A DNA stretch of 7,773 nt from a bacterium (lineage in GTDB: Bacteria; SM23-31; JAUVVT01), in the NCBI GenBank assembly GCA_030616165.1, contig JAUWXV010000178.1, positions 1 to 7,773 on the forward strand, read 5' to 3'. Position 1 is the first letter of the stretch, and every line of letters begins with the position of its first letter. Positions 1,915-7,773 of this stretch are shown in pieces. The notes below the pieces were generated by a model. It was not told where the DNA came from, searched no databases, and saw only the letters and a list, made by a program, of their open reading frames with translations. A program made the translations under genes and the position numbers.

Positions 1915-2462
1915 CACAAAGGGCAGGCAGAGAAAATATTCTTTCTGTTAAATTCAATTTTTATAACTCCTTAAAAGTAGTAAATTGTTAAATAGTTATT
2001 ATTTAAAATAACATACTATAAATATAAGAAAATTTATTCGTTTTGTCAAGAACTTTTTTAGTTTTTTTGCTAAAAGAAACAATAGGAAACCACCCACAGG
2101 GCAGGCTGAGGGCACCCACAGGGCAAGCAGAGCAAGGATAAATGAATATAGATTAAAACAAATAATAATAAACCGAATACCCAAAGGGCAAGGAAGAAAA
2201 TAAAGAGGGCGAATAAATTCGCCCCTACGGGTCATGGCCAAGAGGATTATTCATTAAAATAAGGGTTGGAAAAAATTATAATAAATCGCAGACCCAAAGG
2301 GTAAGGACGCAGACTCGAAGGGCAAGGAAGAAAATAAACAAGGGCAGAATAATGCCTGCACACTGTGTTCTGCCCCTGCAGTTTGTTGAAAATAGATTAA
2401 AAATAGAAATATGGAGAGGGGATGGTGGGCGTTTCCAATCTTCTGCGTATCTGCGGTTAATT
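1915..2462. repeat. Left repeat island (degenerate and intact repeat units)
   Basis: This gene-free stretch holds fragments of the repeat family that fills the right end of the window. A short ACAAAGGGCAGGCAGAG fragment lies at about 1916-1932. Two copies of CACCCACAGGGCA(G/A)GC lie at 2091-2106 and 2113-2128 (22-nt period). A full unit at 2146-2271 has a CCCAAAGGGCAAGG block, the GGGCGAAT hairpin and a TCATTAAAATAAGGGTTGG block. A second unit at 2276-2390 ends in a GGGCAGAA/TTCTGCCC hairpin. An inverted fragment lies at 2431-2460. Reading frames across it are artefacts of the repeat. Confidence 0.85.
2186..2271 (+). repeat. Left copy of an 86-bp direct repeat flanking the helicase-exonuclease pair
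   Basis: It aligns without gaps to 6971-7056, 4,785 bp further on. I count four mismatches by eye (82 of 86 identical). It spans the GGGCAAGGAAG block, the GGGCGAAT-AA-ATTCGCCC hairpin, the GGGTCATGGCCAAGAGG block and the CATTAAAATAAGGGTTGG block. Confidence 0.85.
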
Positions 2463-2572: not shown

Positions 2573-5350
2573 ATGCAAAGTGATTTACAAAAAATAATTA
2601 AACTTTTCAGATCTAATCCAGCATTGACTCAACAGAATCTTCAAATTATTGCCTGCGCTGGGTCTGGTAAAACAGAATTTGTATCGACACGTATTGCATT
2701 ATTGGTAGCTGAAGGTTTAGCAAAACCTGAAAATATTGTTGCATTTACATTTACTGAAAGAGCGGCTGAGGAATTAAAATTTCGTATTCGTAGTAAAATT
2801 CGGGAGCTTATCAGGCATCAGCCTGATGTTGGAGATTTATACGTTGGCACAATACACAGCTTCTGTTATGAATTACTTAAAGAATTTGTATCAGGTTACA
2901 GAGGTTATGATGTGCTTGATGAAGGCAAACGTTACTCTTTCGTTAGTTCTATTCAATGGGAATTAGGATTTTCTAAATTAAAAGAATGGTTAGAATCAAG
3001 TTCTCGTAATCCATATGGTATAACAAATCAGGCTTGGATACTAAATACTCTTATTAGAGGGATTGACATAGTAAGAGAAGAAATGCTTTCATCGAAAAAA
3101 ATAGCAGCATGTGAAGAATTTCATGAAGCAATGCAAACATATGACAAAAAGCTTAATGAAAGGCATTTTCTTGATTTCAGCAGTATGATGTCTCATACAG
3201 TACAGATTCTTGAAAATGACAAATCTATACTCAAGTCTGTTAGAAATAGATTTACTCATATAACTGTTGACGAATATCAAGACATTAATCCGATTCAAGA
3301 AAAATTGATTAATTTATTAGTAGGGAAAAAGGGAAATCTTTGTGTAGTCGGAGACGATGATCAATCGATATATCAATGGAGAGGTTCAACTATTGAGAAT
3401 ATACTGACATTCAAAAAGCGTTACAAAAATGTCAACACTCATCATCTACCAATAAACTTTCGTTCCACACACAAAATAATTAATTTAAGTAACGAATTTA
3501 TTTTAAAAAATCGTAACCGACTTTCCAAGTCAATGAAATCGTCCGGAAAGAAATCAGAGAAAGGAGATATCTATAAACTTAAATTCTATTATCAGGAAGA
3601 CGAAATAAAGTTTATTATTGAGAGAATTAAAAAATTAATTGGAACTGATTGGACTGAAAAAGATGGGAAAACTCGTGGATTAACCTATTCAGATATTACA
3701 CTATTTTTTCGATCAGTTAGATATGAAGCTCGCCCTTATTTAGATGCATTAGATAATGCTAATATTCCATATGCTGTTTCTGGAATAGGTGGTCTTTTTG
3801 AATCACCTGAAGTAGATATAATTTTTGACATTTCATCATATTTAGGTGATTTTGAAAAAATATGGGATACCTATAGTCGAACAGGTACGATACCGGATGA
3901 AAATTCTATCTACTATGAATCTAATCGATTATTTCTATTACCAAATAAGAAAAAATTTGTTAAACTCCTTAATGAACTCAAAATAAATATTCAAAAGCGC
4001 AACCGTATATCAATCCAAGGATTATATGGAGATATACTTGCACTATTAGGATTAATTAAGGAAAGACTCCATGGAGATGATTATGAAATCAGGATGTATA
4101 ATCTTGGTCGTTTAAGTCAGGCAATCTCTGATTACGAAGGAACCAGAACTTATTGCACATATAAAGATATTAAACGATTTTGTTGGTTTATTAAGCACTA
4201 TGCAGAAAGTTCATACGATGCAGGGGCAGGAGAAGACCCTACTCGTGTTATAAATGCTGTGCAGGTTATAACACTTCATGCTACCAAAGGTTTAGGTTTT
4301 CCAGTAGTTTTTATGCCTCATTGTATTGATAGAAATCCGCGTAAAACTGAAACAGGATTTTTGAATCCAAAAAAGTTTGATTTTGCCAGATATAACGGAA
4401 ATATTGAGGATGAACGTCGTTTGTTTTATGTAGGTATGACCCGTTCCAAAAAATATTTATTTATAACAACCTCCTATGATCCCGGACCTCGAAAAAGAAA
4501 AAAATCTCCTTCACAATTTTTTAATGAATTAAATGATAAGTATTTTATTACTGAACCAAAGCCAGATCCTACCAAAAGGAAAAAACGAACACCAAAACCA
4601 TCAGTTGAGGATTATCGTTTTCCTACGAGTTACTCAGAGCTTAGCGATTATATTCGCTGTGAGTATGATTATAAGATACGCTATATATATGGTTTTAATC
4701 CAATAATTGTACAAGCACTTGGTTATGGTCAACAGGTCCACAATGTTTTAAATATACTACATAAAATTAACCAGGAAACTGGCAAAATTCCTTCAGATGA
4801 AAAGGCAGCTGAAACTATTTTAGATTATTTCTATTTACGTTATGCAGCAAAAGCACAAGAAGAAACTTTGCGTAAAAGTGCATTGCGGAGTGTCTTGCGT
4901 TATATTGAGATGTGGAAAGAAGACTTTACTCTTTCTGTGAAAACCGAACGACCTTTTGAGATGGATATTAACAATACTTTACTTTCGGGAACAATTGATT
5001 TACTAAAAAGACAATACTATGATGACAATATTCTGGAAATTATTGACTTCAAGACTGGTAACACAAGAAAAATGGATGAAGAATTAAGTCTGCAAGTGCA
5101 ACTTTATACTGTCGCTGCTCGTGAAGCTTTGAATATAGACGTGCAGAAAGCACATGTTCATTTTTTAGATGTGAAAAAACAGCGACGTGTTGAAATATTG
5201 ACAACACAAAAGCAATTAGATTTGGCAATGAAAACAGTATCTAACGCTATCAATGGTGTTACAATACGCAGATTTAATCGGAATCCAAGAAATAAGAAAG
5301 TATGTATAGGATGTGATTGGTCAAAAATATGTGCAGGGAAGAAAAAGTAA
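2573..5350 (+). CDS. UvrD/Rep-type helicase fused to an AddB/Cas4-like Fe-S nuclease
   Basis: This 925-aa protein should unwind DNA 3' to 5' with ATP and cut single strands, as RecBCD/AddAB-type enzymes do at DNA ends. Superfamily 1 motifs are in order: Walker A AGSGKT (29-34), Ia FTFTERAAEEL (58-68), GTIHSF (92-97), II VDEYQD (232-237), III GDDDQSIYQWRG (260-271), IV NFRS (295-298), V TLHATKGLGF (567-576) and VI EDERRLFYVGMTR (612-624). A basic linker (about 638-675) leads to the nuclease: Cys696, His723, G-T-I-D809, IIDFK with D825 and K827, Q841-x3-Y845. C911-x2-C914-x5-C920 at the end completes, with Cys696, the four-cysteine iron staple of AddB, Dna2 and Cas4. All key residues are present except Gly575 in place of the usual Glu of motif V. 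An in-frame stop at 2558 fixes the start. It may be co-transcribed with the exonuclease 127 nt downstream. Confidence 0.93.
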   Translation: MQSDLQKIIKLFRSNPALTQQNLQIIACAGSGKTEFVSTRIALLVAEGLAKPENIVAFTFTERAAEELKFRIRSKIRELIRHQPDVGDLYVGTIHSFCYELLKEFVSGYRGYDVLDEGKRYSFVSSIQWELGFSKLKEWLESSSRNPYGITNQAWILNTLIRGIDIVREEMLSSKKIAACEEFHEAMQTYDKKLNERHFLDFSSMMSHTVQILENDKSILKSVRNRFTHITVDEYQDINPIQEKLINLLVGKKGNLCVVGDDDQSIYQWRGSTIENILTFKKRYKNVNTHHLPINFRSTHKIINLSNEFILKNRNRLSKSMKSSGKKSEKGDIYKLKFYYQEDEIKFIIERIKKLIGTDWTEKDGKTRGLTYSDITLFFRSVRYEARPYLDALDNANIPYAVSGIGGLFESPEVDIIFDISSYLGDFEKIWDTYSRTGTIPDENSIYYESNRLFLLPNKKKFVKLLNELKINIQKRNRISIQGLYGDILALLGLIKERLHGDDYEIRMYNLGRLSQAISDYEGTRTYCTYKDIKRFCWFIKHYAESSYDAGAGEDPTRVINAVQVITLHATKGLGFPVVFMPHCIDRNPRKTETGFLNPKKFDFARYNGNIEDERRLFYVGMTRSKKYLFITTSYDPGPRKRKKSPSQFFNELNDKYFITEPKPDPTKRKKRTPKPSVEDYRFPTSYSELSDYIRCEYDYKIRYIYGFNPIIVQALGYGQQVHNVLNILHKINQETGKIPSDEKAAETILDYFYLRYAAKAQEETLRKSALRSVLRYIEMWKEDFTLSVKTERPFEMDINNTLLSGTIDLLKRQYYDDNILEIIDFKTGNTRKMDEELSLQVQLYTVAAREALNIDVQKAHVHFLDVKKQRRVEILTTQKQLDLAMKTVSNAINGVTIRRFNRNPRNKKVCIGCDWSKICAGKKK

Positions 5351-5477: not shown

Positions 5478-6362
5478 ATGGGAATTAAAAAAAATAAGAA
5501 ATCCTCATTACTCGAAGGTTCTTTTATTCATATCCCTCAAATTGGTTATGTTACAGAGAGTTATTTTTGGAGTGAGGGATACTTGAACTGGACTGAATTA
5601 TTGAATGATTTACATAAAATTAAGATATCAAATTCTAAAAAGAGAATAATAGATAAATATATCATTAAATCTTTAAAGTCATTAGAAAAAAAAGATACAT
5701 ATTTTTTTTCTAAGGCTTTTCCAAAAAATGAATACTGGAGATTATATAGTTACTTTAGTGAAGATTCTTTATTCCTTGATATCGAAACGACCGGTCTAAT
5801 ACCAGGATGTGATTATATTACAGTAATAGGTGCATCCACTCATAAAAAATATTATACATTAATTAGAGATAAGAATTTTGAAAAATTATACGATTTGCTG
5901 AGAAATGCACGAATACTAATTACATATAATGGCAGCCAGTTTGATATAAAATTTATAGAAAAGGAATTTTCAATTTCTAAGTTCAAATTCATCCATATTG
6001 ATTTAAGATGGTTGTTAAGTAGGCTTGGCTACAAAGGAGGATTAAAAAAATGTGAAAAATCTTTAGGAATTAAAAGAGATAAAAAAATTATTGATATTGA
6101 TGGGTATATGGCAGTACTGTTATGGGATAGATATTTAAAAGGCGACTTTCGTGCTTTGAATGTTTTAAAAAGATATTGTATTGAGGATACAACAAACCTA
6201 ATAACTCTAATGCACAAGTCGTACAATTTAGCTTTGAATAGTTTAGATTTTCCTGTAAAAACTTATTTCGAAGAACGGAAAACTATGAAAATAAAGATTC
6301 CTTTTGACAATTCAATAGTACGAGAATTGAAGAAATCATATCACTACGATTATTTGTATTAG
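5478..6362 (+). CDS. DEDDy exonuclease, YprB-type RNase H-like domain with HhH-like N-terminus
   Basis: This 294-aa protein is predicted to be a 3'-5' exonuclease of the RNase H-like fold using two metal ions. Residues 15-45 (SFIHIPQIGYVTESYFWSEG and onward to W38) read like the helix-hairpin-helix-type segment that often precedes this domain and may bind nucleic acid. The catalytic domain runs from about 98 to 250. Exo I is FLDIETTGL with D101 and E103. Exo II is ITYNGSQFD with N151 and D156. HIDLRWLL (173-180) and GGLKKCEKSLGI (187-198) are conserved family blocks. Exo III is Y233-C-I-E-D237. All four acidic residues and the Tyr of the DEDDy class are present, so the enzyme looks active. 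An in-frame stop at 5466 leaves ATG 5478 as the only start, and no strong ribosome site precedes it. The substrate (DNA or RNA) is not decided by sequence. Its neighbour suggests DNA end processing. Confidence 0.88.
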   Translation: MGIKKNKKSSLLEGSFIHIPQIGYVTESYFWSEGYLNWTELLNDLHKIKISNSKKRIIDKYIIKSLKSLEKKDTYFFSKAFPKNEYWRLYSYFSEDSLFLDIETTGLIPGCDYITVIGASTHKKYYTLIRDKNFEKLYDLLRNARILITYNGSQFDIKFIEKEFSISKFKFIHIDLRWLLSRLGYKGGLKKCEKSLGIKRDKKIIDIDGYMAVLLWDRYLKGDFRALNVLKRYCIEDTTNLITLMHKSYNLALNSLDFPVKTYFEERKTMKIKIPFDNSIVRELKKSYHYDYLY

Positions 6363-6450: not shown

Positions 6451-6477
6451 AGCTTTTAGCTATTAGCTGTTAGCCAG
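6451..6477. repeat. Heptamer repeat AGCTNTT, three to four units
   Basis: AGCTTTT-AGCTATT-AGCTGTT-AGCCAGG runs with an exact 7-nt period. The same heptamer recurs at 6688-6694 and 7268-7302. It resembles the short tandemly repeated heptamers known from cyanobacteria and other bacteria. It marks the left edge of the right-hand repeat island. Confidence 0.75.
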
Positions 6478-6546
6478 GATAAGAGGAAAATACATTAAAA
6501 CAAGGATTGGAAATAATAATAAACCGCAGAGTGAAGAAAACCAAGA

Positions 6547-6581
6547 GGGCGAACACACAGTGCAAGCACACAGGTTCGCCC
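6547..6581. repeat. Block C hairpin, long loop
   Basis: GGGCGAAC (6547-6554) pairs perfectly with GTTCGCCC (6574-6581) around a loop containing ACACAGTGCAAGCACACAG. CTAC follows. The long-loop form recurs at 6844-6878 and in altered form at 2342-2375. Confidence 0.8.
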
Positions 6582-6708
6582 CTACGGGTTATGTATAAGA
6601 GGAAAATTCATTAAAATGAGGGTTGGAAAGAATAATAATAAAGCGCAGACACAAAGGGCAAGGACGCAAGAGAAGGGATAAATAAAAAGCTGTTAGTTAG
6701 AATAAAGA

Positions 6709-6730
6709 GGGCGAACACATAGGTTCGCCC
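6709..6730. repeat. Block C hairpin, short loop
   Basis: GGGCGAAC (6709-6716) pairs with GTTCGCCC (6723-6730) around ACATAG, and CTAC follows. The loop is a shortened version of the 6547 copy. Confidence 0.8.
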
Positions 6731-6744
6731 CTACATTTGGTAAA

Positions 6745-6847
6745 AATGAAAATAGATTAAAATAATTGTAATAAACCGCAGACCCAAAGGGTAAGGACGC
6801 AGACCCACAGGGCAGGCCCGAAGGGCAAGGAAGAAAATAGAGAGGGC
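6745..6847 (+). repeat. First copy of an exact 103-bp repeat
   Basis: It is identical by eye to 6893-6995, offset 148 bp. It covers the AAAATAGATTAAAATAATTG variant of block A and the whole of block B up to the first bases of the block C stem. Zero divergence points to a recent duplication or gene conversion. Confidence 0.9.
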
Positions 6848-6878
6848 AAACACACAGTGCACGTACAGGGGTTCGCCC
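6844..6878. repeat. Block C hairpin with one mismatched pair
   Basis: GGGCAAAC (6844-6851) faces GTTCGCCC (6871-6878). Position 6848 is A where G would pair. It is the clearest case in the window where the stem is broken. CTAC follows. Confidence 0.75.
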
Positions 6879-6892
6879 CTACATTTGATTGG

Positions 6893-6995
6893 AATGAAAA
6901 TAGATTAAAATAATTGTAATAAACCGCAGACCCAAAGGGTAAGGACGCAGACCCACAGGGCAGGCCCGAAGGGCAAGGAAGAAAATAGAGAGGGC
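6893..6995 (+). repeat. Second copy of the exact 103-bp repeat
   Basis: It matches 6745-6847 exactly. The copies diverge immediately inside the hairpin stem at 6848/6996 (A versus G) and upstream at 6744/6892. Confidence 0.9.
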
Positions 6996-7056
6996 GAATA
7001 AATTCGCCCCTACGGGTCATGGCCAAGAGGAAAATTCATTAAAATGAGGGTTGGAA
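6971..7056 (+). repeat. Right copy of the 86-bp direct repeat flanking the helicase-exonuclease pair
   Basis: This is the partner of 2186-2271, in the same orientation, with four mismatches counted by eye. It includes the perfect hairpin GGGCGAAT-AA-ATTCGCCC at 6992-7009. Confidence 0.85.
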
Positions 7057-7063
7057 CATCCTA

Positions 7064-7083
7064 AGACACGCCATGGCGTGTCT
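7064..7083. repeat. Perfect 20-bp palindrome with a different stem sequence
   Basis: AGACACGCCATGGCGTGTCT is fully self-complementary and is followed by CTAC, as in the GGGCGA hairpins. It follows block A directly, so it occupies the block C position with unrelated bases. Confidence 0.85.
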
Positions 7084-7136
7084 CTACATTGTTATTTAAA
7101 TACAAAATCCACTAAAATAAGGATTGAAAACAGAGA

Positions 7137-7154
7137 GGGCGAATAAATTCGCCC
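7137..7154. repeat. Block C hairpin
   Basis: GGGCGAAT (7137-7144), AA, ATTCGCCC (7147-7154). It is followed by CCAC instead of the usual CTAC, then by block D. Confidence 0.85.
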
Positions 7155-7209
7155 CCACGGGTCATGGCTGAGAGGAATTGTCTATCAAAACAAGGATTGA
7201 AAACAAATA

Positions 7210-7229
7210 GGGCGATTCATGAATCGCCC
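7210..7229. repeat. Perfect 20-bp palindrome of block C type
   Basis: GGGCGATTCATGAATCGCCC is fully self-complementary and followed by CTAC. The inner part of the stem differs from the GGGCGAAT copies on both arms at once. Confidence 0.85.
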
Positions 7230-7267
7230 CTACATTAATTTTTTGTAAATTGTAAATTGATTGTCGC

Positions 7268-7302
7268 TGCTATTAGCTGTTAGCTATTGGCTTTTAGCTT
7301 TT
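7268..7302. repeat. Heptamer repeat, five units
   Basis: TGCTATT-AGCTGTT-AGCTATT-GGCTTTT-AGCTTTT runs with an exact 7-nt period. It shares its core with the array at 6451-6477 and sits between two block C hairpins. Confidence 0.8.
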
Positions 7303-7311
7303 ATGGAAAGA

Positions 7312-7331
7312 GGGCGAATAGCCATTCGCCC
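7312..7331. repeat. Block C hairpin
   Basis: GGGCGAAT (7312-7319), loop AGCC, ATTCGCCC (7324-7331), followed by CTAC and block D. Confidence 0.85.
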
Positions 7332-7385
7332 CTACGGGTTATGGCTGAGAGGAATATTCATTAAAACAATGGTTGGAAACAGAGA

Positions 7386-7403
7386 GGGCGAATAAATTCG
7401 CCC
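7386..7403. repeat. Block C hairpin
   Basis: GGGCGAAT (7386-7393), AA, ATTCGCCC (7396-7403), followed by CTAC. Stem and loop are identical to the copies at 2207-2224, 6992-7009 and 7137-7154. Confidence 0.85.
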
Positions 7404-7468
7404 CTACGTTTGGTTGAAAGAGATTATTTAAGACATTTTGTGGGAACACCTTCGTCAGCAGAAAGTTA

Positions 7469-7494
7469 CGCCCGGGGTAATGAAACCCAGGGCG
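7469..7494. repeat. Imperfect inverted repeat of another type
   Basis: CGCCC-G-GGGT (7469-7478) pairs with ACCC-A-GGGCG (7485-7494) around AATGAA, a 9-bp stem with one G/A mismatch. It lacks the CTAC tail and does not fit the block C family. No U-run follows closely enough to call a terminator. Confidence 0.5.
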
Positions 7495-7518
7495 ATCGAA
7501 AATTCATTAAAAAAAAGA

Positions 7519-7539
7519 GGGCGACCCGCCGGATCGCCC
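7519..7539. repeat. Block C hairpin with variant interior
   Basis: GGGCGA (7519-7524) pairs with TCGCCC (7534-7539). The interior CCCGCCGGA is GC-rich and partly self-complementary. CTAC follows. Confidence 0.75.
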
Positions 7540-7717
7540 CTACATTCGGTGTTTCTACAATTCAAAATAAGTAGTTATACCGCAAACGGCGGTTATGATA
7601 AATTTGTTAATCGAATATTATGCTTATCTAATTAATCCATATCATGTATTGTCCCCCATTTACCAAATAAACATTCATGCTCCTTTGGAGCGCCACGAAA
7701 AATGAAAATAACTGTAA

Positions 7718-7751
7718 GGACAGAACCCAAAGGGCAAGCACTGTTCTGTCC
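7718..7751. repeat. Hairpin with GGACAGAAC stem, block C position
   Basis: GGACAGAAC (7718-7726) pairs perfectly with GTTCTGTCC (7743-7751), and CTAC overlaps and follows. Its loop contains a CCCAAAGGGCAAGCA piece of the block B type, so a block B module sits inside a block C hairpin. Confidence 0.8.
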
Positions 7752-7773
7752 CTACATCTAATTTCTTTAATCT

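Follow-up and report, generated by a model that had tools for sequence, protein, structure and literature searches.

The hairpins repeated in two islands of this 7,773-nucleotide stretch (the window) are very probably REP elements of the TnpA_REP/RAYT subclass 2.4 type, which a RAYT would read, cleave and spread. The placement in subclass 2.4 is a provisional one, made by common features rather than by a phylogeny that includes the published reference sequences. The anatomy of the hairpins, their abundance, the co-variation of their arms, the asymmetry between their strands and their association with RAYT genes, inside as well as beside them, are established here. GTAG-tagged REPs form a super-family tied to RAYT/TnpA_REP Y1 transposases, for which it is already published that stem variants within a family are complementary, that one genome can hold several families and that REPs can lie in genes (PMC3733652).

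Anatomy and abundance of the hairpins

Pair-by-pair inspection covered thirteen hairpins in the two islands (2207-2379 and 6547-7755), the one at 2342 by eye (Table 1). In its minus-strand form every one of them is a tag followed by a palindrome, and all point the same way. The preliminary description had counted about twelve hairpins with a CTAC tail, which is the GTAG tag seen from the opposite strand; the family is real, although the exact tag is found in 11 of the 13, with GTGG at 7137-7158 and GCAG at 2342-2379. Three consecutive G-C pairs form the foot of the stem in 11 of the 13 elements, a GGG-type foot being absent from 7064-7087 (AGAC) and 7718-7755 (GGAC). The loop is TTTA in four hairpins (2207-2228, 6992-7013, 7137-7158 and 7386-7407), and the same loop is present in one studied REP, judging by the mutants described (PMC8266576). 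Stem GGGCGAAC is common to 6547-6585, 6709-6734 and 6844-6882, with loops of 6 to 19 nt. When 12 window hairpins were folded as single-stranded DNA and compared with shuffles, z values ranged from -2.4 to -6.6, with only -1.1 for 6844-6882. This last copy had been described as the only mismatched one (as 6844-6878); it does deviate, by a G.T wobble on the GTAG strand, but 7519-7543 contains a second wobble (T.G).

Table 1. Hairpins and CRISPR-DR7-like units of the window
Feature	Positions	Strand	Basis or remark
REP, GTAG + GGGCGAA/TTCGCCC, loop TTTA	2207..2228	-	left island
REP-like hairpin GGGCAGAA/TTCTGCCC, long loop, tag GCAG, hence no CTAC tail	2342..2379	-	by-eye reading
REP, stem GGGCGAAC, loop of 19 nt containing a small inner hairpin	6547..6585	-	pair check, folding
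REP, stem GGGCGAAC, loop CTATGT	6709..6734	-	pair check, folding
REP, stem GGGCGAAC/GTTTGCCC, one G.T wobble, long loop	6844..6882	-	pair check, folding
REP, GTAG GGGCGAA TTTA TTCGCCC	6992..7013	-	pair check, folding
REP, AGACACGC CATG GCGTGTCT	7064..7087	-	pair check, folding
REP, tag GTGG, body GGGCGAA TTTA TTCGCCC	7137..7158	-	pair check, folding
REP, stem GGGCGATTC, element GGGCGATTCATGAATCGCCC	7210..7233	-	pair check, folding
REP, GGGCGAAT GGCT ATTCGCCC	7312..7335	-	pair check, folding
REP, GTAG GGGCGAA TTTA TTCGCCC	7386..7407	-	pair check, folding
REP, stem GGGCGATCC, element GGGCGATCCGGCGGGTCGCCC, one T.G wobble	7519..7543	-	pair check, folding
REP, stem GGACAGAAC, long loop	7718..7755	-	pair check
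Decayed CRISPR-DR7-like unit	2236..2272	+	12/37 mismatches; alone at edge of chance range
Decayed CRISPR-DR7-like unit	6477..6513	+	7/37 mismatches
Decayed CRISPR-DR7-like unit	6593..6629	+	9/37 mismatches
Decayed CRISPR-DR7-like unit	7021..7057	+	10/37 mismatches
CRISPR-DR7-like unit	7094..7130	+	Rfam RF01320, 40.5 bits vs gathering score 37
Decayed CRISPR-DR7-like unit	7167..7203	+	13/37 mismatches; judged by 73-bp spacing, alone within chance range
Decayed CRISPR-DR7-like unit	7343..7380	+	9/37 mismatches

Abundance was evaluated in stretches adding up to about 1.0 Mb of the host's 3.74 Mb, the first part chosen for its GGGCGA hairpins and the rest mostly by contig number, so that densities are not a fair genome average. 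This sample contained 209 perfect GTAG hairpins (79 distinct sequences) with 32 distinct 7-nt arms, and a Markov-1 control genome contained none. Hairpins occurred at 65 per 1000 GTAG compared with 1.0 per 1000 other tetramers, a contrast (about 65-fold) far too large for sampling by GGGCGA hairpins alone to produce. Chance hairpins are ruled out by this enrichment together with the empty control. The exact element GTAGGGGCGAATTTATTCGCCC was found in 0 of the 289 other genomes searched and is therefore not a universal sequence.

Paired change of the arms and the strand that folds

Co-variation was evaluated with an anchor made only of the tag and the four outer pairs, leaving the inner three pairs free and thereby avoiding selection for pairing. 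All three inner pairs were intact in 72 of 103 distinct elements, whereas 500 shuffles averaged 9.2 such elements and never exceeded 17. This bears out the earlier reading that both arms change together and the fold is kept. This tag-anchored version underestimates pairing, since many GACA and GGAC elements look imperfect in it only through register artefacts; a loop-anchored version gave the same picture with fewer elements. Compensatory change could also be seen in place, where homologous flanks hold GAGACAT../..ATGTC and GAGACGT../..ACGTC; for AGACAT..ATGTCT and AGACGT..ACGTCT, 47 of 50 flank bases are equal. Intermediates are present as well, as in the series GGGTTCG..CGAACCC, GGGTTCG..CGAATCC, with a G.T pair, and GGATTCG..CGAATCC.

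Among one-mismatch copies read on the GTAG strand, the host genome had 19 with G.T and 5 with A.C (P = 0.003), and other RAYT loci had 18 and 8, respectively (P = 0.04), both P values being generous since some copies are related. Because G.T on one strand is A.C on the other, this excess shows the GTAG strand to be the one whose fold is kept. By itself, the G.T excess fits DNA and RNA folding alike and does not separate them.

Different hairpins also replace one another in homologous flanks. In some of these cases the hairpins are quite different, with arms and loop both altered; for example, taatctattttcatttttaccaaat precedes both GAAC(CTATGT)GTTC and GAA(TTTA)TTC. Such replacements could be expected if both arms were rewritten from a template, by quasi-palindrome correction or by fork template switching, with no need for selection by an enzyme; templated rewriting had already been raised in the preliminary description. 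We consider it unlikely, since it predicts few intermediates and no strand bias, whereas 32 one-mismatch copies and a G.T excess on the GTAG strand were seen, and stem identity follows RAYT identity (see below). The G.T intermediates suggest that at least some of the stem change is stepwise.

RAYT genes with hairpins beside and inside them

Pfam Y1 is matched seven times in the host genome, and one RAYT finds nineteen matches there, some of which are parts of one and the same gene. NCBIfam REP_Tyr_transpos was the best match, better than IS200, for all five Y1 proteins tested, two of which score above its curated cut-off and three below. GTAG hairpins adjoin the resident RAYTs and sit in frame within them, as in L002 and L003 (SRRGELVHP, EGRVNPPL), L006 (VRANGRSPL), L024, L136, L138 and others; in L006, L024, L136 and others they lie between HuH and Y. 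The involvement of a RAYT-like enzyme, proposed from the window alone, is thus well supported: the elements agree with published REPs in tag, stem and foot (PMC3733652, PMC6006769), and several resident RAYTs have such hairpins beside or inside them. The enzyme is not the orphan Y1 transposase that had been imagined, as several RAYT copies hold REPs in their own coding sequence. These in-gene REPs first appeared new, but they had already been published (PMC6006769).

No RAYT gene adjoins the window REPs. Their arms GGGCGAA and GGACAGA are matched at a resident RAYT, and the stem GGACAGAAC of 7718-7755 recurs within a resident RAYT-like reading frame (contig C302, about 3058-3318). For the host genome as a whole, 55% of the elements have an arm also found at a resident RAYT; about 45%, including those with the window stems AGACACG and GGGCGAT, had no matching arm at any RAYT among the fetched sequences.

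The association was also evaluated in 80 named RAYT loci from Nitrospirota, Chloroflexota, Bacteroidota, Cyanobacteria, Desulfobacterota, Planctomycetota and more. Internal GTAG hairpins were present in 63 of them, and 97 of the 108 internal hairpins lie between HuH and Y. Density was 2.5 hairpins/kb inside the gene, 1.1/kb within 600 bp and 0.05/kb beyond. A 7-nt arm was common to internal and outside hairpins in 25 of the 31 loci having both. The preliminary description placed similar CTAC-ended palindromes in cyanobacteria and other bacteria, in agreement for cyanobacteria with published GTAG REPs from that group (PMC3733652) and with the GTAG REPs carried by Anabaena and Calothrix RAYT loci. 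In one RAYT of another genome (L150), the in-gene REP region has expanded to a long in-frame peptide repeat (IGQAQIGQAQ...).

Arm sharing between pairs of RAYTs dropped with falling core identity, from 3/3 pairs (100%) to 13/19 (68%), 96/328 (29%), 158/2162 (7%) and 16/648 (2%), the pairs being non-independent. So steep a fall indicates that each stem goes with a RAYT lineage, and many stems are therefore to be expected where a genome has many RAYTs.

The hairpins might instead be kept for a role at the RNA level, as terminators, mRNA stabilisers or processing sites. Functions of this kind have been published for some REPs (PMC3733652), and folding of one strand with tolerance of G.T is predicted likewise. 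We regard this explanation as very unlikely because it leaves unexplained why the GTAG tag is fixed, why the hairpins are enriched roughly fifty-fold within RAYT genes and why the stems track RAYT divergence.

The reading as RAYT-dependent REPs suggests a simple sequence of events, in which binding, cleavage and mobility are borrowed from the literature. The GTAG strand would become single-stranded and fold, a RAYT would read the element through its tag and folded hairpin, and cleavage and transfer would then spread it through the genome. Many RAYT lineages, present or past, each with a stem of its own, would leave several stem types side by side, and within a lineage the stem would drift in matched pairs, as an unpaired stem would no longer be folded and read. 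In vitro, the enzyme reads GTAG and bases of the loop and largely tolerates swapped stems, while mismatches in the stem impair cleavage (PMC8266576); given this tolerance and this sensitivity, paired change calls for no new mechanism.

CRISPR-DR7-like units and relation to known systems

The window hairpins are placed between DR7-like units, about 73 bp apart in places, so that the REPs of the GGGCGA class form part of a larger unit. Seven such stretches were found, one of them above the Rfam gathering score, with 7 to 13 mismatches in 37. The best match in each of 30 simulated windows had 12 to 17 mismatches, so that the two weakest units draw their support from spacing or context. MicX and other Rfam matches below their gathering scores were dismissed as chance. 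In the 1.0-Mb sample there were 38 units with up to 13 mismatches, versus none in the control, and spacings of 66 to 75 bp recur. A unit lies within 60 nt of 20/58 GGGCGA REPs versus 0/40 other GGGC REPs. Considering all REPs, 24 cases gave an offset to the unit, which was +6 eight times and -7/-8 six times. True arrays of other genomes, one of them of the same class, have the repeat end seen in these units, and cas1 was not detected in the host genome, although the assembly, at 90% completeness, may simply lack it.

These units invite the idea that the window hairpins are old spacers, acquired by CRISPR arrays from REPs of the same cell, and that the arrays later lost their cas genes. Several hairpins do occupy slots of roughly 36 nt between DR7-like units at 73-bp spacing, true arrays with a nearly identical repeat exist in same-class and other genomes, and no cas1 was found in the host. 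Nevertheless, independent spacer capture predicts random orientation and offset and cannot account for the REPs outside DR7-like units, which makes it highly improbable; the preferred orientation and offsets and the shared slot edges fit duplication and hairpin exchange better.

The exchange of hairpins may be RAYT-driven or may be due to template switching or to recombination via the shared foot. A rather doubtful proposal is that whole hairpins are swapped at fixed sites by a RAYT-dependent reaction, with dead CRISPR array slots as the favoured sites in this genome; the REP inside each RAYT gene would serve as the seed copy from which a new stem is defined and spread. Joined-flank searches for empty sites produced no convincing case, the hits being weak and AT-rich or lying in tandem arrays, and the nearest genomes are too far removed for strains to be compared.

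Other repeats share the two islands. The TTAGCTNTTAGC motif (6451-6474 and 7261-7298; 25 copies in 1.0 Mb) in several places occupies the slot that follows a DR7-like unit, with a similar pattern in another genome (L245). The CGCAGACCCAAAGG and CTTGCCCNNNGGG units (2287-2328, 6644-6679, 6777-6846 and 6925-6994) are tiny CCC-NNN-GGG palindromes, also found within the long loops of some REPs, e.g., 7718-7755; CTTGCCCNNNGGG occurs 54 times in 1.0 Mb. The palindrome family CCCTGGGTTTCATTACCC, at about 7466-7496, has 5 copies in 1.0 Mb and is also present upstream of the L004 RAYT gene. Between the islands are a UvrD-type helicase with a PD-(D/E)XK nuclease domain (2573-5350) and an adjoining RNase_H_2 protein (5478-6362).

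With its many RAYTs and dozens of REP stems, this genome offers a good natural series on how an enzyme tracks a changing hairpin, and hairpin replacement in fixed flanks and the link to decayed CRISPR-like repeats are testable leads on REP movement.

Compared with known systems, the elements share with the GTAG REP super-family (Di Nocera et al. 2013, PMC3733652) the tag, a stem of 6 to 13 bp, many copies, several families per genome and complementary stem variants, but they differ in their high diversity (the 32 arms per 1.0 Mb) and in the location of some copies within a CRISPR-like frame. Subclass 2.4 REPtrons (PMC6006769) have three G-C pairs at the REP foot, as do most elements here, and REPs both flanking the RAYT gene (tnpA_REP) and in frame between HuH and Y, as in this genome; unlike in them, the window REPs are away from a RAYT gene, and some families lack the GGG foot (AGAC, GACA, GTCA, CCGA). 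REPINs (Bertels and Rainey 2011, PMC3116915) are likewise built of REPs with linked RAYTs, and inverted REP pairs do occur within RAYT genes, but no such pairs (REPIN units) were found among the window REPs, which are single copies in one orientation. The CRISPR direct repeat DR7 (Rfam RF01320) is resembled in the 37-nt unit, the slots of about 36 nt and the one copy passing the gathering score; however, the window is not a CRISPR array, as its repeats are strongly diverged (7 to 13 of 37), repeats fill its slots and the genome has no detected cas1. The hairpins thus add a rich new case to a known kind of element, their oddity being that some copies sit in the apparent remains of a CRISPR array.
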